Origin: Heterobilharzia americana
Taxonomy: Eukaryota > Platyhelminthes > Trematoda > Strigeidida > Schistosomatidae
Direction: 5' to 3'
NCBI GenBank assembly: GCA_944470555.2
Contig: OX104130.1
Coordinates: 56,453,491 to 56,517,490 of the forward strand
Length of the DNA: 64,000 nt
Shown here: positions 1,316-63,995 of the stretch, piece by piece
Layout: every line of letters begins with the position of its first letter
How positions within the stretch are numbered: the stretch's first letter is position 1
Position numbers and translations under genes: made by a program
The notes under the pieces: model-generated
What the model was told of the DNA's origin: nothing
Database searches by the model: none
Seen by the model: the letters and a program-made list of their open reading frames with translations, nothing else

Positions 1316-1437
1316 AGTTCTATTTTAGTCTGTTCATTAGGAATGTCACACACTGAAGCACTATTATCCACTGGATAACGTTTCGGACATAGTTTATTGT
1401 CTATATTCATGTCACGTAACTCCACAACTGTGAGACA
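1316..1437 (-). repeat. Left inverted arm of PLE (a)
   Basis: The reverse complement matches 2951-3072 at roughly nine positions in ten. Both arms translate to a shared peptide containing VVELRDMNIDNKLCPKRYPV, which is the inverted repeat read in one frame and probably not a real protein. Confidence 0.75.
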
Positions 1438-1509
1438 GGTCATCCCATCAGGTTCACGATGGATTTTGGAAACACTCCAACCTACTAGCTGCCTAAACAT
1501 TTAGCAGTC

Positions 1510-2790
1510 ATGTTAGGCCCAATAAGAAATCACTCGAAATCTCGACCTACTAACTCTTACGACGTAAGGCACTGGCGAAATGACACGCGATTTGATGACA
1601 GTGAAAAAGTGGTTAGTTTTGACATAACTAGCCTTCACACGAATACACTGATCGACATGGCCATAGTGGCAGTTAGATTTGGGCTTAAGGATGACAATGA
1701 GGTTACGTATCGAACTAAGGTGCCGATCGAGAGAATTATGCTAGGAGTACGATTGTGCCTAACATCTACAGCTCTTAAGTTTCAAAATAAAACATAAAAA
1801 ACTGAAGGGAGTGCCATAGGATCATCAATATCCACTATCTTAGCAGATATACTTATGGGTAGTTGGGAACGGATGGTTCTTCAAACATTTAGCCCTACTC
1901 CATAGATATGGTTCCGATATGTAGATGATATGTTCACAGTACTGAAATCGGAATACATCAGTAGGTTCTTGTCAGTAGTGAATGCAATCTGATTTGTCTG
2001 TGACTAAGAAAGTGATGAAAGTGAGCTGGCAATGTTAGATTGCAAGACAAAATGAAAACAAGATGGAAGTTTAGACACTAGTGTCCATAGGAAACCTACC
2101 CATTCGAATTGCTAATAAGACTTCAAATAATTTCACTCCATTTCAGTTAAACTGGGCTTAGTTAAATACTTAAGTGGTAGGGCGGAAAAGCTTAATAATA
2201 GAACAGAAAATCTACGGCAAAAAATTGGACAACTCAAGAATACCTTGCGTCTCAATAATTACCTACCTAAATTTATGAATAAAGTCAAGAGAGGTCGAAA
2301 GAAAACTATTAATAGTAATAGTAATAGCAGTAATAGTAGTAGTAGTTAAACAGGTGTTATTAATGATAATTCTACTACTACTAGTAATAGTGATAACAGG
2401 GTTGAGAGAGAATTCAAAGCCTCAGCTGTGCTATCATACAAAGAAGTCACCTCAGACGTACTAAGAAGAATTCTTAATAAGACTGGGATTAAGGTGGCCC
2501 TTAAACCAACAAACAAGCTTTGTAGGTTAAAGATCCTATCGATGCAATTAAGCAAAATAATCTGGTTTACCAAATCCTTTGCGATGATTGCGAGGTCAAA
2601 TACATAGGTCAAAGTAGTCAACCAGGTCAATGAGAATAGTATAACACAAAAAATCAGTTTAATCAAGATTACGAGATCATAATAAGATAAGAAATTTAGA
2701 AAAAAGCATGGCTATAGCTCTGCATGTAATTTCACACAATCACACAGTGGAGTGGGATAGAGCGACAGCGTTGAAAACTAACTTCGTTGG
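1510..2790 (+). pseudogene. PLE (a) reverse transcriptase and GIY-YIG endonuclease remnant
   Basis: Reading across frames, the palm motifs appear in order: motif A as VSFDITSLHT near 1612-1640, motif B as GSAIGSSIS near 1807-1835, and motif C as FRYVDDMFTV with the YVDD codons at 1918-1929. These are followed by the conserved HRKPTHSN block near 2085-2110. A linker rich in Ser/Asn codons, made of an AGT/AAT microsatellite (2308-2395), leads to the endonuclease part. There the RRILNKTGIKV block and the LVYQILCDDCEVKYIGQ motif (2560-2610) match the CxxC-containing GIY-YIG module of PLEs. Stops at 1795 and elsewhere make it non-functional. The catalytic YVDD is still present. Confidence 0.8.
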
Positions 2791-2950
2791 TTAGAGGGAA
2801 GGATAGATTGATAACCGAATCTTTGTTTATCGAATCAATACCAAATATATGCCGTAATGGGAATTATTCTGCACCTGTCCCAGATATATGGAAAATTCTA
2901 CTACTCTTGTTATTACAGGGAAGGAGAGAAAATTAGGAATATATAAAGTA

Positions 2951-3072
2951 TGTCTCGAAGTTGTGGAGTTACGTGATATGAATATAGACAATAAACTGTG
3001 TCCGAAACGTTATCCAGTGAATGATAGTGCTTCACTGTGTGACATTTCTAATAAACAGACTAAAATGGAACT
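2951..3072 (+). repeat. Right inverted arm of PLE (a)
   Basis: This lies just downstream of the GIY-YIG remnant, in the position of a 3' untranslated region, and is the inverted partner of 1316-1437. Confidence 0.75.
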
Positions 3073-8683: not shown

Positions 8684-11350
8684 GGACTGCTGACCCAATT
8701 TTCAATTTATTTCAATCACCAGGGGTTTTCCCCGCCTGGCATATGAATTCGTGATGTGCTACTATCGATTGACCGAACTCACACTGGCTACCCAATTTGG
8801 ACGTTTCATCCCAATCTAAATCTGCTTCAGTTAGAGAAGGGTAGCATCATATCGATTATCACTGTGACCATGTGAGATAGCTGTGGTTTAACAGTTCTAA
8901 GCTGTACAACTATTACAAAACTACTTATAGGGTCCGACTACCTCTACTCTCAGTTAGACAACAGTTTCATTTATAGTTAATCAAATTCAACCAATGGTTT
9001 GTTATTAATTAAAGTTAATTAGCTTCCTCAGACTAGACAGTAACCTCCACTTTTGATGGAATTTAGGGCGCAGAATGTAAGTAGTGCATTATCACAAAAT
9101 ATTATTTATTTTCAATGGAAATTACATAAAAAAAACTTTAACAGCTGTTATAACTCCTAAGATGCACACCGTAAACCATGAATATACACGCCGAAACCCA
9201 TAAAATCTGTCTGATTTAAAGAGAATCACTTTCCAATGGTCTACGTTTAGAAGATGAATACATTGAAAACATAGATTAATTACAGATAGATAGCTGCACT
9301 GTTTCACCTGTTGGGTGTAAAAATGTCAGTGTTGACGGTTAATTTGTCTAAAAATAATTTCCGTTAATGGCTTCATATATCTCGGTAAGAAATTCGTCAC
9401 AGTCAAGCGATGGAGGAACCAGAACAACATAATTAGGTATAAAGATAATGAAAAAAATGAAAATCACCTCTATTGAAGAACAAAAAAGTAAATTAAAGGT
9501 GGCATTCACCCCATTGTTTGAGTTCCTTTTTCATTCATGCTAATCATTAGAGAATATTAGTGATGTGGCTTTTGCTGAATGTTCTTAATGATGTTGTGAA
9601 GAAGTTCAGCTACTTCTCAGCTATCTAGTGTCACTACTTTTCGTCAACATTGAATTCATCGGTATGTAGACAGGAGGCAAAGGACTAACCATGTCGCTAA
9701 ATTATAACTTTTGATGCATGTGAAGTGCTAACTGCTCATAGTATACTACATTAACAGACCTAAACATCTTGAATTCAATTAGCAATCATTTCACACAAGG
9801 ATTTCTCGATGCCGTTAGGTGTGGTAACAAACCCAATGCGAATTACCTATTTGTTGTAATGGTATCCAAAAATTAGGCAGCATGGTTCCTCTTGGCTAAG
9901 CCAATGAAGAACAAACAACGACGTGAACAAAATATACGGACACATAGTGGTAACTAGGTTGATTATTTAGAAAACGGAGTCTCCCCTTTTAAGTGTTATT
10001 TTACAGATTAACACAGTAGCAGGGCAATAGATTGGTCTACACGCCATTCAATTATATGAAGGAAGAAGAAGCATTTAGTTGAAATGGATAGTAATCTTCA
10101 AGTTCCATCACTAATCGGAGCTTTGAAACTTCCATGCGTCTTACTCTCACATGATGTTTAAGCGCTGTGAGATTTTCATTCAACTAGTGGAATCGAAAGG
10201 CTAAGAAAAGGATTACTAATGCCTCAACCGGCCGTATAAGATATAACAAATATGTCATAACAGATACAGGAATAAAACAATACAATGTCAAGAGGGATCT
10301 CATGTCCGAAACGATCACTAACGTTCTTTTTTCCGTAAGTGAAGTGGTACTTTTTGTAGTCACTCATGAGACGTAAGATTTCCGGCACTTTTAATAAATA
10401 TCCTGGAGCCAATCGAAACTATTGAAAAGATATATTAAGAGTGTTATAAAAACTTAACCTTAACTCTGGAAAACTGACGTTACTTCCAAAATTGAAACAA
10501 ATAAGCACTGTAGTCAAAAATAGTGATTAGCAGACTGTTTTACTGGCTAAATGTGTGATATTTCAGCAGATTTTTATTGTGGAAACAAGACAAATGCATT
10601 TTCATGCATCCATTATTCCCAATTAAACCAGTGACATCGATGAAAGATTTCTATCCTTATGCTGAAATTCAGAAACAGATTTTGGCATCGGAGACAGGAA
10701 TTAACTATTCATTTGTTCCAGATAAATAGCGCTGTCATATTGAATTAACTGTTCGTCTCGCTTTTCTTGAAATATACTCTTGACAACTTTAACTTCAATT
10801 TGAGCTCAATGATCCCTAGGAATAGTTGATATTTAGAGGGCAGTTATAGCGGCACTGAGGTTCTCTGCAATGAAGGCAGCATCCGAGCTTTTGGCTTTCA
10901 GTGTAAGGCTGGACATTTTTAATTCGAAATTATGCTTCATATTATCAGAAGAATAGGTAGAAATGAAAAAACCTCATTGGCATGCATAATCGTCTACCTC
11001 AGTCTTTGCTTTGTCATTCAATTGAACAGCAAACAATTGGCTATCAAATAAGATCAGCTGCAGTAGTGAGATTTCTATACTGTGGTTTCATCTTCACGTG
11101 AACGACTACGATGAGCATTCAGCTGATACGCAGATATCTAGACGTTTGGATCATCATCATAATGTTAACTGTATAGCAGTTCTAGGTCATTTTACCTATG
11201 TGTGAGAAAAGCAGCTAGAGTAGACAGATTTCGGTAGCGAATTTTTGGTTGCTAAAGGTTGTTGATGAGTTTGATACTAAGCACATTGCTGTTTGAGGAT
11301 TTAAATATATTGATAGTGTTCTAGGAGCTATCCACTACACTAACGGCTAA
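8684..11350. other. Non-coding DNA, nothing recognised
   Basis: No gene, RNA or repeat family supported. The stretch ends at the target-site duplication of PLE (b). Confidence 0.4.
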
Positions 11351-11359
11351 TTTCTATTT
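11351..11359. repeat. Target-site duplication of PLE (b), left copy
   Basis: The 9-mer tttctattt occurs here and again at 14062-14070, immediately outside the two ends of the element. Confidence 0.6.
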
Positions 11360-11386
11360 CGTTGACGACTTTAATGGACAGAAAAC

Positions 11387-11825
11387 GAGAGAAGACGATT
11401 GCAATGAAGAAAAACATTTCGTTTGTGACGAAATCATTTCCTTACCAGTACACCCATAAATACATTGTACAAAAGATATAATATTCCAGAGTTACTCCCA
11501 GTCAAAGGTCAAAATAAATTACACTGCAAGGGAAGGCTACTCAATGTCTTTAAGTGTTCAAAATGGAGAAATAAACAAATAACTGCCTGATATAACATAG
11601 TTGCACTTTAAGGGAATTTTCTGAGCAATCAATTTTCTACAACGATCATGGGTAAAAAGGAGGTTGTATACACTTCTTTTGAACCTATAATGATAGTTTG
11701 AACTTTTGGATTGGTTATGCTTCAGCTGTGCCGAGATGTCATAACCTTACTCTTTTCGAGTGGCTTGACTGTGCTTTGTAAAACCTTTTACAGATTTATC
11801 AAAATGAGTCAAGTCTCCTGAGTTT
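11387..11825 (-). repeat. 3' arm (sense) of PLE (b), inverted partner of 13621-14059
   Basis: This is the 439-bp arm at the true 3' end of the element. It extends 27 bp further than its inverted copy. Confidence 0.9.
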
Positions 11826-11829
11826 ACTA

Positions 11830-13560
11830 GGTGTCCTGTTACAAAGCTGGAGAAGCATTTCCGTTCTCCTCTTGTTAGCTAGGTTGAGTAGTGTTTTGCG
11901 AGCACATTTCACAATCTGGCGTATGGTACTACTGATGTACTCGGTTCCACAAAGCAAGTAAAGTGATACACATACACACTGTGTCCCAGTTTAGCAGTTT
12001 ACCTTTTGTATACTGACGAATGAGCTTCTGAGAGGAGAATGTGATTCTGAGATTGACTGAAAAGAATGTTCTTGATCTCGATAACCTCTTCCTAAAGATA
12101 TCTACCACGTTATCCTCCTTAAATTTAAGTTTTAACAGTAAAATCATTTTCGGAGCAATAGATGAGTGTTCCGCTATGTTTTTCTGCTTCACATTCTTAG
12201 ATATAAATTTCACTGGCTATCTATTTTCTGTCAGGATTTCTTGCAAATTTTCTAGTTCATCATAGATAGTATCCTTCGTGCATATTCTTCATATTCTTGA
12301 GGGAGATTAACTGATAACATCCTTCCTTCTTTTTAAGGACACAAGTTTGAAAATTGATGAACTGCACATTCGAATAAGACTTTCTGTAAATAGATCTCTG
12401 GACTGAATTGTCATCCTTTCTTTGAAATTGGACATAAAGGAAGTCTAATTTGGAGCTTGACTTTGCTTCTGGAGTGAACTTGATGAAGGGATAAACACTA
12501 CTAAAATTTTGAAACAGGTTTTCAAGATTCTTATTCTCGTCACAAATTATAAAGGTGTAGTCTATGTATCTTCCTTAGATATAAAACCCAAAGATTTTTT
12601 CGATAAGGTTGCTACATTTCGGTGTAGGCAGAGGGATCCGGCCCACACATGATAAGACCGAAATGCACTCAACAGCAGCGATTCTCTCGCTTGTAACTTT
12701 TACGAGCTTCGTACACACTGTTCCTAACCTCTAATTTACCTAAGTACACTCTAGCGCTGGGACGATGCATTTTCACCAGGAGGAGCAGTGTAACCCATTC
12801 GAAACATTACTCATTCACTTTTCAGTTTCAATTTCTAGACTCCGTCACTTCTTCGGGGTCAAGCTCCACTGTTTGTCAGCTATCTCATTACTAAATGTAA
12901 GTACAATTTGTGTAGTTGCTGGGTCGTCAGCTCATGTTTCTTTCTTCCTCTTTCCCTTCCAGATTCTCGTGGTCACCACTTTGCCGAGGCCTGGTATCTG
13001 GCTCCAACTTTTAAATCCGATCCTGAGGGATATTATCTCTTTAATTAATATTCCAAACACTTCTGATCCGCCTGCGTCAGACAGTTTAGACAGCAGGAGA
13101 TTACTCGAAGTATAGATTAGGATGCTGTATTGACAAACGACCCAAAAATTTTGAAACCAGTAACAAGCAGATGGAATGCTCTATAGTAACACAATTAAAC
13201 AAATGTCCAACTATAAGGTGAATATTGAATACACCAATAAGCGGAATGTGACAAATAAGTTACACGGTTGTTTTTTCTGGGATTTTGTAAATGAGTCACC
13301 TTGTAAGAGTGCTAAAGGCTATCCCATTGCGACCCCATCTGTCAGACTGTAGATTTCATTATTAAATTTGAACGGCATGTTGAGAATATATCTAAAAATA
13401 AATTCTTTCAAACAGTGATTTCGGATATCAACGCTTAAGCTATGCGACTGAATGGACTCAGAAAACAAATCAGTTCCGTTAGTGGGACATCTGCGAATAG
13501 TTGGATGACATTCAGAGAAATCATCCTCTTCCCTGAATGATTATATCAGCAAAGTGAACT
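11830..13560 (-). pseudogene. PLE (b) reverse transcriptase and endonuclease remnant
   Basis: On the minus strand the landmarks run 5' to 3': DVPLTELICFL (after motif A) near 13470, SLTDGVAMG (motif B, followed by a stop) near 13330-13360, and motif C near 12570 with YIDY in place of YVDD, so the second catalytic aspartate is lost. Then come KLDFLYVQF, RSIYRKSYSN (the usual YRKPTHSN block) and a region at 11929-12213 that matches element (c) at 56670-56790. The endonuclease part has CGTEYISSTIR, where YIG has become YIS. About 500 bases between motifs B and C (12720-13240) do not fit the PLE and look like foreign sequence. Confidence 0.75.
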
Positions 13561-13620
13561 GTGCCACGCAGGCTGTTTCAAATTTCATTCTTCACTGGAT
13601 TAAATAAAAAAACACTAAAC

Positions 13621-14059
13621 AAACTCAGGAGACTTGACTCATTTTGATAAATCTGTAAAAGGTTTTACAAAGCACAGTCAAGCCACTCGAAAAGAGTAAG
13701 GTTATGACATCTCGGCACAGCTGAAGCATAACCAATCCAAAAGTTCAAACTATCATTATAGGTTCAAAAGAAGTGTATACAACCTCCTTTTTACCCATGA
13801 TCGTTGTAGAAAATTGATTGCTCAGAAAATTCCCTTAAAGTGCAACTATGTTATATCAGGCAGTTATTTGTTTATTTCTCCATTTTGAACACTTAAAGAC
13901 ATTGAGTAGCCTTCCCTTGCAGTGTAATTTATTTTGACTTTTGACTGGGAGTAACTCTGGAATATTATATCTTTTGTACAATGTATTTATGGGTGTACTG
14001 GTAAGGAAATGATTTCGTCACAAACGAAATGTTTTTCTTCATTGCAATCGTCTTCTCTC
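13621..14059 (+). repeat. Inverted copy of the PLE (b) 3' arm at its truncated 5' end
   Basis: Reverse complement of 11387-11825 with one mismatch seen. It starts exactly where the reverse transcriptase sequence breaks off. Confidence 0.9.
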
Positions 14060-14061
14060 TG

Positions 14062-14070
14062 TTTCTATTT
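14062..14070. repeat. Target-site duplication of PLE (b), right copy
   Basis: Second copy of tttctattt, matching 11351-11359. Confidence 0.6.
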
Positions 14071-14522
14071 ATCAAATGGGTGTTTTTGTATTCGATACAA
14101 CTGACTTATCATGATTGTTTGATTGTTGTCCCGCAGACCATCTGAATGAAATCAAAAGCCCTTTAATGTTGTTTCCCTGACTTTTTAAATACTGTCCAAT
14201 AGAATGCAAACTCTAGAACTGGAATGCTAATGAATTAACTTACTCACCGCATAGTTTCATAAATTTAACTCTATTTTGTCCACTTTAACAACAAAATAGG
14301 TTCAGGAGTCCTGCTGCGTTTTTCGGTGAACACGATTCATTATCGCTTGCGGCAGAATCTGATGACGTGTAGGCTAGTGTAACTTTATTATCAGTAAATG
14401 ATTGGGAAAGTTTATAAGGCAGTGACAGGGAATCTCAGTCATAACGCGAAGGTGCTTGAATGCTTCTAATGGCATAAGGATGATTGGTTCTTCTTGGCTA
14501 CTTATTCTATGAAGTCTTACTT

Positions 14523-16458: not shown

Positions 16459-17106
16459 TCATTGTAACAAGACAGTCCTGCTGATCAGATTCCGTACGAC
16501 AGTTAATTTAGTAGTAACAGAATGTACAGACTGATAATCGAGGTATCTGTCTGAATGTGTTGCTCCTCTGAAAATCTTAATCTTCAGTCTGTTGTAATTC
16601 TGTCTTTCTACTATACAGTCCATAAAGTTTAATTCCGATAAATTGAATTCAAATTCCTTGGTGAAAGGGATACTTCTGCACATATTGTTTATGCGACAGA
16701 AGAGTTCATCCAGACTGTTTTGGTTGACGATGACAAACGTGTCGTCTACGTACCTTAACCAACTTCTTGAAGGTGTAGAGCAATTTGCAATAGCATTTTT
16801 CTCTAACGAATGCATGAACAAGTTAGCTACCATTGGTGATACTGGAGATCCCATTGCTATACCATCTGTCTGTCGGTTCAGATCTCCTCTGAATGTGAAT
16901 ACAGTTGATCGTAAGCATAATTCCAAGGACTTCAGAATTTCTCTCGGATCGAATGAGCACCATGAACTTAGGTCAGTATCTGACAGCAGTAGGTTGTGAA
17001 TAATATCTAATGCATCTTTAATAGGTACGTTAGTAAATAAAGAGCAAACATCAAAACTTGCCATTGTTTTATCTTCTTCAATGTAAGATGAAATGATTTT
17101 ATTCAT
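16459..17106 (-). pseudogene. PLE reverse transcriptase domain
   Basis: All core motifs are intact: motif A as SFDVCSLFTNVPI (about residue 18), motif B as GIAMGSPVSPMVANLF (about residue 83), motif C as LRYVDDTFVI (about residue 117), then LNFMDCIVER and a degenerate YRKPTHSDRY block (FRGATHSDRY). It is the best-preserved PLE palm in the window. The frame is lost at both ends, so it cannot be translated as the usual 700-800 residue protein. Telomerase-related reverse transcriptases share this motif layout, but the attached GIY-YIG block identifies a PLE. Confidence 0.85.
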
Positions 17107-17301
17107 GAGTTCAGACAGATTATTTATTACTTATTTTAATTCCTTTTCGTATGGTTTTAGGATTCATGAAATGTATTTTGTTAACTTGTACGTGGGTGAG
17201 TTAGTAAAATCCACAACTTGTCTGAGAGAGATATCTGTCTTGAGAAGTTTCAGCAGTCCGTCGAATCTACAAGGGTTGCAACGTTTTGGTGCTAATGAGA
17301 A

Positions 17302-26890: not shown

Positions 26891-28182
26891 CTCAACAATA
26901 AGAGTATAGCGAGTATAACACAAGACATTCAGACGGAAAATATATACCTAGAACCTCGAACACAAGTGAGTCAGTTTAAGTTGCAATACTTCACAGTAGT
27001 ATACAAAAAAAGTGTATAGAATAAGAGTGACTCCAAAGTAGACAGAGTTGTCTGAGAGAATAAGCAATTTGAAGATAATGGTTAGCGTAAATATTGTCTT
27101 TGGAAGACATCAAAGAATGAATACATCTACACTACTGTGACCAGTTTCCATCTATTTCACCAAGTCTTCAACCACTGATTCCTGTCGTCTTGGAGACCCC
27201 AACTAAGCAGGTAATCTATATTTCCTCACACAGCTCAGACCAAGATTCACAGACTTCACGAATTTGTCCAATGTCTTACGTTGGTCACCGTAAACACTCT
27301 TCCAACTTTATCCAACCTCCACCAGCATTTCATGGTATGGCAGTGTCCCGTCATATGCAGTGCACGTTCAAGCTACCTCAGTCGACGAAGGTTCAAAAGC
27401 TCAAAGGCTGAATTGACTAGTATCCCCCACCTGACCTCCACACTGCTCACACTGGGATCCCACCAGACGCGACCAATGCTTCGAAGACTTGCAACCGCCT
27501 CATATCTTCTATTTTCAACGGCCATGTCACAGCCGTATAATGGTACAGAACGGATTGTAGAGGAGTAAACTTGTCTTTAATTGTAGTGGGATATCTCAGG
27601 AGTCGGTACTACAGATGACACCAGTTGGTAAACCACAAACCGGCCTTCTGTATCCAAGTTCAGATTACCTCAGCAACCACATTCTACTGGCTGATGCGAT
27701 TCCACAAGTAAGTGAAGTCGTCGATGTATTCAACCACTTCATTACCTATCTTTGAACCAGGAATAGTTGCAGCAGATCAGTGCTGGAGTGTCATATCACA
27801 CTTGACAGGTGGAAAACGACTGGCAGTCAAACATGCATATCTGCTCAGCAAATTCAGATGACCCTACATTTTGTTTACACCAAGCAGGACATTATAATCT
27901 GCATACGCTAAGTCAAAAACATGACCTTACGGGAGAAGCACAATCCTCGTAAAGTCACATATACCAAATGTTCCGTCCATTAGTACGTACATAACCAAGT
28001 TAAACAGAAACGATGACAGTTCGCGTCTATGGTAGAGACCACTAGTGGTCTATATAAGCCCTTGCATGACTGCGTGTTATTCACTAACTTGGTACTCCTT
28101 TCACAGTCAGGCATTACTACAACACCTCACAGTAGACACAGTCAACTGCCGCCTTCAGGCTAGAAAATATAAGAAGCATCGA

Positions 28183-28512
28183 TCACCGGTAAGTGTGCTT
28201 GTATTCCATAACCTGACAGAGGATTAAGATTTGATCGATGCATCCAAATCTACATCTGAAACCTGTCTGGTTTCCCACACCTCCATTTCGGTGTCGAATA
28301 ACTATGGACGCTAGGATCCCAGACACGATACTAGTCAGACTAACTCCCCTGTGGTTATTGCAGAAGGACTTCTCCACCTTCTTTCGGAGGAGAATGATCA
28401 GTGAAGTAGACCAGTCTGACGGCACTACCTCTGATTTCCATACACTACTCAGTACCTCCGTCACTCTGATTAACAATTTCCTACCTCCATCCCTAAGGAC
28501 TTCAGTTGGCAA
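28183..28512 (-). pseudogene. LINE L1 reverse transcriptase, N-terminal fingers/palm
   Basis: The frame reads PTEVLRDGGRKLLIRVTEVL, VWKSEVVPSDWSTSLIILL, NNHRGVSLTSIVSGILASIV and TGFRCRFGCIDQILILCQV, the standard LINE order ('EVLK', 'P.DW', 'YRGISL', 'AGFR.GR.C.DQI'). After it the palm decays: motif A appears as SLKAAVDCVYCEVL near 28140 with the aspartate block disrupted. An identical frame lies at 34486-34815. Confidence 0.8.
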
Positions 28513-28876
28513 ACCCTCAGAACCTGCTGGTTTGCATTGTTTTGGGTTCGAAACAGCTCCCTCAACTTCAAGAAGAGTTGGAGGATCGACAACGATGTCC
28601 GATTCTTGTTGGAGTTAGCTGGGTGCTGGACAACTGAAGCGTTGCTGAGGCCCAGTTGAACTGCCCTTCAAACTGTTCTGCTCAACGTTCTGGTCGTCTG
28701 TCTTGGCAGGTTATCACCGTCCCATCGTTTTCGGTGATGGCTTCACTAACTATCGTCTTCTTCTTGTTGGTATCCTTAATAAGTCTAAATGGTGCCTCCT
28801 CCATCTATCTCGCTCTCCCCACCCACCCATCACTGCTCGCGATCGGCGCGAAGACTTTGGTCAACTTACGTTTGAG

Positions 28877-29221
28877 TTACTTTCGCTCCTCATCATGGTC
28901 AGAGTCAGGTGGAATCAGTCTTCTCGCATCAATCAGTTTGGATGATGTTTTGGAAATCCAACGACGTTTGCCAACCTTCGAATGTAGGTCACCAACTGTC
29001 TTTAACGTTGTTTCTACAGCAGACTTGATATGACGCCAGGTTTCCTCAAGATAAGCATTACTGTCATGTTTAGGTAGATGCTTCACTACCTCCTCCCTTA
29101 ATGCACACCTGACGTTCTCATCTTCCAATCGATCATAGATGAGCTTGACTATCGCCTTTTTCTTGCGACCACTAAGGTTCAAGCATATACGTACCAGTTC
29201 TAACACGTGTTCGGAGTCCAA
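28877..29221 (-). pseudogene. LINE L1 linker between endonuclease and reverse transcriptase
   Basis: The 114-residue frame starts MDSEHVLELVRICLNLSGRK, a decayed version of the 'SDH..V' end of the endonuclease, and continues with YLEETWRHIKSAVETTLKTV and RRWISKTSSKLIDARR. The same sequence with a 1-nt deletion is at 33782-34122. Confidence 0.75.
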
Positions 29222-29298
29222 ACACGTAATTCAGAAAGGACGAGAATCCCCCAAAGATGGCTTATAGCAATATGATTTAGTTGTGTCCATCGTTGATT

Positions 29299-29879
29299 TC
29301 ATGTTGGCAGAAGCCATTTCAAGGAGCATCTCCCCTTATGTTCCAAGTTGCTTCTGGTCAGAAACAAGTGGTAGTTGGAGAAGAATTGCAACAGATGGTC
29401 AGCGTTCCCGGCTTGTTGGCACGGAATCCCGTAAATACTTCCGACATAACTTTCAGATACGCTGAGCTTCCCTGCTCGAGTGTTGAAGTTACCTGCTTCT
29501 ATAACGATATCTGAACGTTTTGTTTTCTGTAGCAAAACTGACAGCTTCTCATAGAATTCATCCTTTGCACCATCCGAACTGCAGTTTGTGTGCACATAGG
29601 CGATGACGAATAGGCATAGATTAGTCTTAAGATCATTCCTAGTCCTTACAGATCCTTTCAGCGGAACAGCACATAGCTGTTCACTGGCATACAGTCGAGA
29701 AGTACACGTTCTGCTTTACAACTTAATGCCATGCCTACACTAGGAAGTCCACGAGAGCCAGCCATTGGGTTTCCGATTACTTTCATGGTGAATTTTGAAG
29801 ATTCACTACTATGGTCAGGTGAGGTGAATTTAATAACCACACTAAGGTCATAGAGACAGAACATATATCTATGGTGCAA
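29299..29879 (-). pseudogene. LINE L1 apurinic-type endonuclease remnant
   Basis: The two frames 29658-29879 and 29299-29595 together contain GNPMAGSRGLPSVGMALS, then HTNCSSDGAKDEFYEKLSVL (the 'Y.P' block), DIVIEAGNFNTRAGKLS (normally 'VAGDFNAQVG', catalytic D and N, here GN) and HLLQFFSNYHLFLTRSNLEH. The loss of the aspartate in GDFN indicates an inactive enzyme. Confidence 0.75.
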
Positions 29880-33405: not shown

Positions 33406-33891
33406 CACTGGATGAAAGTCAACTACCCAAACGAATGGACAATAGCTCTACCATGTACTCTGACGAATTTACGGTGGTTCGACATATTTCAAACACCTGT
33501 CACTAAATATTCACAACCATATCGATTAACTTATCACCCTTGCAAGGAACTGAACATTTTACTTCAACTTTGCCAAAAATGTGGTTCACCCTAATAGTGA
33601 CAGCCAAAAACCCAGAACCAAAGGCTTTCAACTTCAGTAAAAGTACCTTCATCCACTTCGATGAACTGAAATCAGAAAATCGCGTGTCTGCAGGAAAACG
33701 AAACCAACAATGGACATAACTAAATCATATTGCTATAAGCCATCTTTGGGGGATTCTCGTCCTTTCTGAATTACGTGTTTGGACTCCGAACACGTGTTAG
33801 AACTGGTACGTATATGCTTGAACCTTAGTGGTCGCAAGAAAAAGGCGATAGTCAAGCTCATCTATGATCGATTGGAAGATGAGAACGTCAG

Positions 33892-34122
33892 GTGTGCATT
33901 AAGGAGGAGGTAGTGAAGCATCTACCTAAACATGACAGTAATGCTTATCTTGAGGAAACCTGGCGTCATATCAAGTCTGCTGTAGAAACAACGTTAAAGA
34001 CAGTTGGTGACCTACATTCGAAGGTTAGCAAACGTCGTTGGATTTCCAAAACATCATCCAAACTGATTGATGCGAGAAGACTGATTCCACCTGACTCTGA
34101 CCATGATGAGGAGCGAAAGTAA
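33892..34122 (+). pseudogene. LINE L2 linker region
   Basis: Same sequence as the L1 linker (YLEETWRHIKSAVETTLKTV, RRWISKTSSKLIDARR). One base is missing relative to L1 at the GGGAGG run near 33900, which shortens the open frame. Confidence 0.7.
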
Positions 34123-34485
34123 CTCAAACGTAAGTTGACCAAAGTCTTCGCGCCGATCGCGAGCAGTGATGGGTGGGTGGGGAGAGCGAGATAGATGGAG
34201 GAGGCACCATTTAGACTTATTAAGGATACCAACAAGAAGAAGACGATAGTTAGTGAAGCCATCACCGAAAACGATGGGACGTGATAACCTGCCAAGACAG
34301 ACGACCAGAACGTTGAGCAGAACAGTTTGAAGGGCAGTTCAACTGGGCCTCAGCAACGCTTCAGTTGTCCAGCACCCAGCTAACTCCAACAAGAATCGGA
34401 CATCGTTGTCGATCCTCCAACTCTTCTTGAAGTTGAGGGAGCTGTTTCGAACCCAAAACAATGCAAACCAGCAGGTTCTGAGGGT

Positions 34486-34815
34486 TTGCCAACTGAAGTC
34501 CTTAGGGATGGAGGTAGGAAATTGTTAATCAGAGTGACGGAGGTACTGAGTAGTGTATGGAAATCAGAGGTAGTGCCGTCAGACTGGTCTACTTCACTGA
34601 TCATTCTCCTCCGAAAGAAGGTGGAGAAGTCCTTCTGCAATAACCACAGGGGAGTTAGTCTGACTAGTATCGTGTCTGGGATCCTAGCGTCCATAGTTAT
34701 TCGACACCGAAATGGAGGTGTGGGAAACCAGACAGGTTTCAGATGTAGATTTGGATGCATCGATCAAATCTTAATCCTCTGTCAGGTTATGGAATACAAG
34801 CACACTTACCGGTGA
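34486..34815 (+). pseudogene. LINE L2 reverse transcriptase, N-terminal part
   Basis: Identical in translation to 28183-28512 of L1 (PTEVLRDGG through CIDQILILCQVMEYKHTYR), then disrupted before the palm in the same way. Confidence 0.8.
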
Positions 34816-35169
34816 TCGATGCTTCTTATATTTTCTAGCCTGAAGGCGGCAGTTGACTGTGTCTACTGTGAGGTGTTGTAGTAATGCCTGACTGTGAAAG
34901 GAGTACCAAGTCAGTGAATAACACGCAGTCATGCAAGGGCTTATAGAGAGTTGTCAATTTAGTTGAAGATCACTAGTAGTGTTTGCCATGGGTACCTTCG
35001 TTATATACGTACTAACGGACATAACTTTAGACACGTCTTACTTTACAGGTATAAAATTAACTCCGCGAAGATAATCTGGTTGACATTAGATTATTGAGGA
35101 GAGGTTTCAGAAATGAACGTAGCGAGTACTCATGGTTCATAGAAAGCAGGTAACAGAAGTCAATCGGGC

Positions 35170-62203: not shown

Positions 62204-63235
62204 TCATGTAAAAAATGAAAAACATGTTTGTATATCCGCAACAATAGATACATGTTGTTTTTGGTTTTTTAAATGCAAAGTTAAGTGGTGACCTTTTTCA
62301 AAAAGTTTTTGTCTAATTAGAGTCTGCCATATAGGTGACAAGTCAATACCTTCCTTTCTGTTTAAAGCATCTGTTGATGTTAGAATATGCAAGGCTTCTG
62401 ATGTCAATCTCTGTTTGTGTGTAAGGAAACCCTTCCCTAGTATGTCAACATTGTCAAAATCGATTTTGTGCCCACTTTCAATGGCGTAAGTTGCTGTTGC
62501 TGATCTCTTTTCCAAATTTTTCAGTTCCACTTAATTTTTTGGTGGGTGTTTACTGCATAATCTAGGTTCATTCACTCCAACTTTCAGCTGTCTGTAACTT
62601 TCGCCAACATAGTTGGCGTCGCATTCCGAACATTTAATCTTATACACGCAGTTGTTTTGTGTCATCTTTGGGATCACAACTTTCACTTTGACCAATGTTT
62701 TTTCCAAAGAATTTGAAGGCTCGAAATATACCTTAATACCACACTTTGCACAAACTCTTTGCATTCGTTCTGAAGTACCCTTCCTGTATGGAATTGTCAC
62801 TGTTGACGTCAGGCACTTCTCCTCCCTCTTACTTTTCTTGTCTGTTTCTTTCTTGTCATTCTTCTTAATATTATTGTTCGGAAAATGCCTTGGGCAGTCA
62901 TTCTCTATCAATACGTTTCTTATTTTAGAAATTTCATCTTCTTTACCCTCCGTATCCATCACAATATTTTTAGCCCTATTCAATAAGTTCAAAGCCGCTG
63001 TGGTTTTAACATCCATTGGATGGTCAGACTGGAAGTTCAGATAGTTCCCAGAGTGTGTAGGTTTTCTGTAAATTTTAGTTTTAAATTCTCTCTCTTGTGT
63101 TCTTTGAATTAGACAATCTAGGAAATCAAACGTTCCTGCCGTCAGTTTGGTTTCATTTGCAAATTTTATGAAATTCAACATTGAGTTTAAATGTTGTAAA
63201 AAACTTTCAAGTTCTGTTGTCTTGGTGATCTTCAT
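62204..63235 (-). pseudogene. PLE thumb, linker and GIY-YIG endonuclease
   Basis: Two frames split at 62530/62531. The first starts after motif C and has FDFLDCLIQRTQEREFKTKI, IYRKPTHSGNYLNFQSDHP (an intact YRKPTHS block), a Lys-rich linker, RVCAKCGIKVYFEPSNSLEK and CVYKIKCSECDANYVGESYR (GIY-YIG core with CxxC and YVG). The second has the C-terminal part (IESGHKIDFDNVDILGKGF, RLTSEALHI). Closest in the window to 15906-16319. Confidence 0.8.
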
Positions 63236-63995
63236 ATCTACATCAAAGTTTGGGCTGACAGTGAAAGCTATTTAAAGATCTTTCTTCGAATGTTTTCATA
63301 CATAAACTGGCCACAATCGAGGATACTGGTGAGTCCATCGCAACTCCTTTAGTTTGACGGTATAACTTGTCCCCAAAGGTAAAATATGTTGACTCTAGAC
63401 GCAATCTTAAGTATTTCATGATGTCTCATGATGATAAAGGACATCCATTTGGTATTACTTGATCGTTATCAAGTAAACTTTTTACGATATTAAGTGCATC
63501 AGGTACGGGAATACTGGTATAAAGAGAAATTACGTCAAAACCTACCATAAGTTCTTCTACTCCTATCGTGTTAACCATTGGTTTATTCTTGAATTCTTCC
63601 GAGTTTCTAATATTAGAAGTAAACTCATGTTTCAACGGTTTCAACAATTTTGATGGACAACGTGTTACCTAATTAGCGAAGCCCACGACTGGTCCAAGAG
63701 GGATGTCCATTTTATGTATTTTTGGTCTACCATTAGAATCTTGCGGCTGAATTTGTCTGGGGGGCTAACGAAAACCATGTTGCATTCCCAGTTTTGATTT
63801 TAACTGTCTCAGTAAATTGCATGTTTCGGCTTTCGTTTTGTTGAATGTGCTAGAGATCTTATTTGTTGGTATTGGTTCATATGGACCTGACACAATATGT
63901 TCCAATGCCTTCTTATCACAATCTTCACTTTTCAGCATAACCGTGACATTACCTTCGTTAGCTTTAGTTATCACCATTGATTTGTCCGATTTCAA
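63236..63995 (-). pseudogene. PLE N-terminal and palm region with motif C deleted
   Basis: The frames 63765-63995 (KSDKSMVITKANEGNVTVML, GPYEPI) and 63426-63647 (LMVGFDVISLYTSIPVPDAL, motif A) precede motif B at about 63325 (YRQTKGVAMDSPVSSIVASL, MGS changed to MDS). Where motif C should be (about 63240-63262) there is a short deletion with a frame change and the YVDD codons are missing, so this copy is catalytically dead. Confidence 0.75.

Follow-up and report, generated by a model that had tools for sequence, protein, structure and literature searches.

A decayed Penelope-like element of Heterobilharzia americana with its tail on the inverted arm, probably primed on both target strands and homogenised later

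Canonical Penelope-like elements (PLEs) encode a C-terminal GIY-YIG endonuclease, and many of them harbour, as an optional feature, a hammerhead ribozyme in their pLTR. The origin of their inverted copies has long been open, and the roughly 1000 sites of one young family in the genome studied here allow counting. In LINE-1 twin priming, the inverted piece derives from further 5′ in the same RNA; in the elements described here, unlike in LINE-1, both pieces begin at the 3′ initiation region. The likeness to LINE-1 lies in a priming of both strands that would lead to inverted, truncated copies flanked by target-site duplications (TSDs) (PMC2837659). Closer relatives are the Penelope elements of the rotifer Adineta vaga, which possess inverted pLTRs, TSDs of 8-10 bp and a 31-bp tail; the article on them suggested, in 2013, that PLE inverted copies arise when an antisense template primes itself (PMC3846280). 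In 2024, an in vitro study of PAc, a PLE from Anolis, reported two adjacent internal start sites of reverse transcription, the interval between them being the genomic tail, together with the cutting and extension of both target strands at AT-rich targets (PMC11167929). Finally, gene conversion or template switching is known to homogenise the arms of inverted repeats (PMC3723533, PMC8604942). Tails, inverted copies and internal initiation are thus matters already published.

Here, we compare with these systems an element lying in a 64,000-nt stretch of Heterobilharzia americana DNA (the window), its relatives being searched for in a genome of 665 Mb and 337 contigs. Two families are concerned, the focal family and the young family of another element, (c), which the sequence-only reading had taken for a related copy. 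The resemblance to PAc extends to two start sites, AT-rich targets and, in our interpretation, extension on both strands, but PAc has a hammerhead ribozyme (PMC11167929) and none was found here, neither in the window at Rfam gathering scores, nor in 11300-14150 at E up to 1, nor in seven related loci. L059, a (c)-family locus, gave three microRNA-like Rfam matches below threshold, spread over the two strands of a single palindrome. As in Adineta vaga, direct partial tandem copies giving a pLTR occur here, in loci L084 and L092 (2 of 13 upstream stretches in the (c) family); unlike there, the focal copy shows no direct pLTR or partial tandem copy and no certain TSD, and its arms were probably homogenised later (PMC3846280). 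The features of the focal element are as follows.

11387..11825, minus strand: 3′ end of the longer copy (left arm), 438/439 identical to the right arm
11387 or at most about 10 nt outside it, minus strand: outer end of the left arm, without tail
11826..12611, minus strand: decayed coding region of the PLE, reaching from the EN side as far as RT motif C (RYIDYTFI), recognised by tblastn in broken frames and colinear with other copies
12612..13287 (edges approximate), no strand: segment of about 680 bp that separates motif B from motif C, facing alignment gaps in other copies
13288..13600, minus strand: decayed RT with motifs B and A and the 5′ truncation just upstream of motif A (tblastn, colinearity)
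13604..14059, plus strand: shorter inverted copy (right arm), with family homology to about 13605 and an identical tract that stops at 13621
14060..14098, plus strand: true PLE tail, on the inverted arm (0/2860 controls against all 26 other flanks)
11351..11359, no strand: left 9-mer TTTCTATTT, with its right copy at 14062-14070, judged a chance match
11365..11376, no strand: possible decayed TSD with a partner at about 14100-14113, only suggestive (158/5000 random pairs score as high)

The architecture given by the sequence-only reading, a PLE with a truncated body between inverted arms derived from its 3′ end, is supported. The arms (11387-11825 and 13621-14059) do differ at a single one of their 439 positions, identity being 443/446 when counted across 11380-11825; the body breaks off just 5′ of RT motif A, as had been proposed, and its orientation is indeed opposite to that of (c). 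On the minus strand, the interior matches the RT/EN frame of the young (c) family from the same genome (tblastn, E 5e-34), with several stops and frameshifts in the PLE frames. We take SLNVIQLFADVPL to be the motif A region, TDGVAMG motif B and RYIDYTFI motif C. The segment of about 680 bp is missing in three other copies (alignment gaps in L004/L081, L015/L020/L082 and L018/L083) and is probably a nested insertion. The focal peptide pieces gave one sub-threshold TPR match and nothing else in Pfam, and a search of solved structures returned weak RT matches alone, with E values of 0.23 and above.

A PLE-type reverse transcriptase is recognised through the young (c)-family frame, which the focal fragments match and which itself matches Pfam RVT_1 (8.3e-13) and flatworm RT proteins. 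The best protein relatives listed are from Schistosoma and Trichobilharzia, the closest among them being from Schistosoma rodhaini (73%). The motif CIYQFTCSC..ARYIG..RMLSTRIREH is visible in the frame and is, we assume, compatible with GIY-YIG; the GIY-YIG Pfam model is unmatched, and one of the 120 listed relatives (P0116) is named a GIY-YIG superfamily endonuclease. The label PLE is our own assignment from familiar motifs and architecture, no Pfam or protein match being named Penelope.

With 40 of its 355 candidates scored, the focal arm has at least 43 matches in the genome, and those other than its own two arms are 67-78% identical to it. At 22 of 28 other loci (L003-L030, of which L015 and L020 are one insertion), the same PLE body follows the arm colinearly at about 67-80% identity, which shows that the arm is the 3′ end of a PLE and not a foreign terminal inverted repeat (TIR). 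It is thus hardly conceivable that the arms are TIRs of an unrelated DNA transposon carrying PLE fragments: the long terminal inverted repeats would suit such an element, but beside this colinearity stand inverted copies that vary in length. We rejected this candidate, as no TIRs of constant length are seen, the inverted parts are PLE 3′ ends and the recognised coding matches are RT/EN. The kinship claimed with (c) was not borne out either. At the DNA level, nothing in (c) matches the focal arm significantly (best E 0.51), so the two elements belong to different PLE families. A 28-nt motif of the (c) family, with up to two mismatches allowed, occurs at 1000 sites (508 forward and 492 reverse), and a SNP-tagged pattern search gave 1 site.

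The two sides of the focal element are not alike. In other copies of its family, the arm is followed by a common tail of about 30 nt. Compared without selection with all 26 other flanks, the right flank (14060-14098) beats every control, while the left flank (11347-11386) is ordinary with respect to the family tail, 1277 of 2877 controls scoring as high; nine tails picked by eye gave the same result (right 0/2866, left 2106/2866). The tail sits on the right, beyond the inverted arm. Hence, the 27 nt by which the sense 3′ arm had been thought to extend are not family sequence, and the right copy of TTTCTATTT lies inside the true tail. The 9-bp flanking repeats that had been noticed do exist, TTTCTATTT being present on both sides, but with its right copy within the tail the pair is not supported as a TSD. 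Random flank pairs of the window share an exact 9-mer in 0.5% (40 x 40 nt) to 1.5% (60 x 60 nt) of cases. The pair is probably due to chance; at this frequency it counts against our reading, less strongly than the tail supports it. A decayed TSD at the revised boundaries was also sought, and none is clear. The left arm, too, has a weak outer margin (187/3000 controls). The offset supposed to be common to both elements does not recur in (c), whose two ends lie about 28 and about 6 nt beyond the reference motif, as judged by eye; these values differ from the usual site pair of its own family.

We also found that the near-identity of the arms ends within homologous sequence. On the inner side, family homology extends 15 nt further than the identical tract, and in this extension the two arms have 9 of 15 positions in common. 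For the right arm beyond this edge, a register-locked family match was reached by 2 of 20000 controls, using 21 of 24 reference body starts (one duplicate and two out-of-register starts being dropped); a looser, unselected test of the same inner flank with all 24 body starts gave 30/2866. Since homology runs past the identical tract, the arm edges are no integration edges, and because the inner edge falls within homology, the 439-bp arm is not the mechanistic unit; a fixed 439-bp arm was rejected. The picture is clearest in a sister insertion, L082. Its arms share an exact run of 449 nt, and on either side of this run the arm sequence continues, homologous yet diverged, with 20-nt windows at 0.75 on the outer side and at 0.70 and 0.68 on the inner one. 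Arm divergence is step-like in L081 and even in L014, L024 and L030. In a scan statistic with 2000 shuffles, none reached the value of L082 or of the focal copy, 5 reached that of L081, and 1418, 1355 and 1924 those of L014, L024 and L030; the focal alignment includes non-homologous flank, so that the focal value by itself proves little. It is likely that the focal insertion is old and that its near-identical arms reflect a later arm-to-arm conversion or template switch, a judgement that we make jointly with that on two-strand priming below. Conversion would then be the cause of the identical tract. As in known homogenised inverted repeats, the arms are far more alike than their age and their edges lie within homology (PMC3723533, PMC8604942); unlike in these, the focal arms are two transposon copies of one insertion. 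Near-identical arms therefore need not imply a young insertion, nor need arm edges be integration edges.

The young (c) family bears on how such insertions are built. Among its first 100 listed sites, 21 divergent and 0 convergent neighbour pairs lie within 4 kb, and the two same-strand neighbour pairs at this distance are in one larger palindrome. The members of a pair are 3′-terminal PLE pieces that differ in length and meet head to head where they are truncated. Most junctions have an overlap of a few nt (maximum 16) or a gap of at most 10 nt; larger gaps part the copies of L067 (about 250 nt) and L073 (about 640 nt). The points at which the two copies are truncated can lie more than 1 kb apart, which agrees with the earlier expectation that they vary freely. 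In L052/L053 and L097, the head-to-head pairs have long copies on both sides, those of L097 being nearly equal (1827 and 1780 nt). L071, L079 and L100 are pairs within larger palindromes, with mirrored flanks or outer parts, where an inverted duplication is possible.

Of the 26 scored pairs, 25 have exact end repeats of 8-14 bp, at least 10 bp long in 21 cases, a TSD being a condition for scoring; the exception, L098, has an 11-bp repeat with one mismatch (by eye). Repeats of 8 bp are those of L036, L052/L053 and L100, and L080 has 9 bp. In a comparison bearing on whether a single RNA gave both copies, the arms of one insertion differ at 47 of 3278 sites (1.4%, 16 pairs) against 0.9-8.1% between insertions (15 with comparators), the arm differences of L070 (4.0%) and L073 (2.9%) not being clearly below the between-insertion values. 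As for the ends themselves, 28 single loci (L033-L060) fall mainly into two classes past the motif, with 13 at 19-32 nt, 14 at 47-62 nt and one at 170 nt; in pairs, a few ends lie at 11-18 nt. In the tandem copies of L084 and L092, the tail passes unbroken into the next unit, which is what internal initiation on a read-through RNA would lead one to expect (PMC11167929).

A short tail on one of two inverted copies is seen in 23 of the 26 scored pairs, which are long/short; the other three (L063, L074, L100) are short/short. No long/long pair occurs, while independent ends would predict about 5 long/long of 26 (P about 3e-5). With exact repeats of at least 10 bp only, 19 of 21 are long/short (P about 1e-4). 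Element (c) itself is not long/short and stands outside the 26; including it gives 23/27 (P 1e-4). In the focal family, one tail per insertion was seen in 5 of 5 informative pairs, by eye (L014, L024, L081, L082 and the focal copy). Of the 21 pairs assigned, 10 carry the long end on the longer copy and 11 on the shorter, inverted one, L052/L053 and L101/L102 being left unassigned. The 26 were assembled as follows. All 21 divergent pairs from the first 100 listed sites were retrieved and 17 were scored, 15 of them long/short; six further pairs, neighbours of other (c)-family matches picked because an inverted partner was in reach, are all long/short; and of three pairs added from further searches, two are long/short and L100 is short/short, though in a larger palindrome. 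Dropped before the count were L071 and L079 (mirrored flanks, larger palindromes), L075, L078, L035 and L099 (no end repeat, L075 having a chance 9-mer away from the ends), and L041 with L086, L046 with L089 and L050 with L091 (partner without motif).

These counts lead us to suggest, tentatively and at somewhat less than even chance, that each two-sided insertion extends one strand from the outer start and the other from the inner start, and almost never both from the outer. If so, one RNA, or one RNP dimer, would offer each start site once, and the tail would be a signature of a paired two-strand reaction rather than an optional extra. We did not find the pairing of one long with one short end in print, in a literature covered largely outside subscription journals; the accessible part of the PAc study does not link its two start sites to inverted copies or to a use of each site once (PMC11167929).

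For the focal insertion, we propose the following origin as the probable one. The target would be cut in a staggered manner and both strands would prime reverse transcription, one nicked strand giving rise to the longer, 5′-truncated copy that reaches just before RT motif A, and the other to the shorter copy. The two cDNAs would then be joined head to head at their truncated ends. Synthesis would start inside the RNA at one of two sites about 26-30 nt apart, different for each strand, so that the tail would be found on one arm only, here the shorter, inverted one. Much later, the arms would have exchanged sequence, either through gene conversion or by a template switch from one inverted repeat to the other, and the resulting 439 nt of near-identity would mimic a recent terminal repeat. 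The PLE identity, the tail on the right arm and the tract ending within homology are observed at the focal locus itself, and unequal truncation points, TSDs and a single tail per insertion in its relatives; the priming of both strands, its enzymology and conversion as the cause of the tract are what we read from them.

Other origins account for part of these observations. The model drawn from the sequence-only reading is a young insertion with a 9-bp TSD, in which copying snaps back or switches at a fixed point about 25 nt inside the 3′ end, the sense 3′ arm always running further. The near-identical arms and the shared 9-mer, rare as it is by chance, would be expected from such a course, which we nevertheless consider very improbable. 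At the focal locus the tail belongs to the inverted arm, and just 10 of 21 (c)-family pairs have the longer end on the longer copy, so the inverted arm does not always start 20-30 nt inside the sense 3′ terminus. What stands of the offset is an interval of about 25-30 nt between arm ends in the PLE families here; the arm that carries it is free, and the focal copy does not display the offset measured in the sequence-only reading. Moreover, truncation points that differ by so much imply that the inverted copy was not begun at the truncation point, and the direct repeats lie outside two different start sites. A snap-back would copy the same end, which does not agree with different outer starts on the two arms, while one priming per strand does. 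Two independent primings thus appear to fit better than a restart within the 3′ end.

Self-priming on an antisense template, which would make head-to-head inverted copies, has been proposed from palindromes at inverted junctions in Adineta (PMC3846280). It would suit the pairs in larger palindromes (L071, L079, L100) and the near-equal copies of L097, but most pairs have unequal truncation points, hence no junction palindrome, and two different arm ends per insertion are hard to derive from one copied strand. We regard it as unlikely at the focal locus; while the Adineta vaga paper proposes self-priming, our counts speak for two primings in each insertion, at start sites that complement one another. 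One could also imagine a recent insertion from the RNA of an already decayed source copy, without conversion. The arms, identical at all but one site, would follow at once, and non-PLE genes between pLTRs are known to be mobilised in trans (PMC3846280). However, no sibling or source copy closer than 78% was seen among 40 of 355 candidates scored, the arms are diverged in the homology beyond the identical tract, and L082 has likewise diverged margins on both sides, which leaves this origin quite improbable. Two-strand priming followed by homogenisation remains our preferred reading, and we see in the focal element an ordinary but instructive PLE, probably old and two-sided, with a tail on its inverted arm and homogenised arms.

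Several other parts of the window bear similar structures. At 1316-3072, a PLE-like RT fragment (1432-2298, plus strand) lies between inverted arms (1316-1437 and 2951-3072) that are 92% alike, making it a third candidate two-sided insertion. The minus strand holds further PLE-like RT fragments at 16477-17268 and 62450-63731, which share about 27-31% identity with the protein of the (c) family. At 28049-29300 and 33700-34949, two inverted arms of about 1252 bp are 99.4% identical and 4.4 kb apart, with no match to the PLE protein used for comparison. Finally, an imperfect palindrome of about 650 bp at 42942-43593 matches its own reverse complement at 75%.
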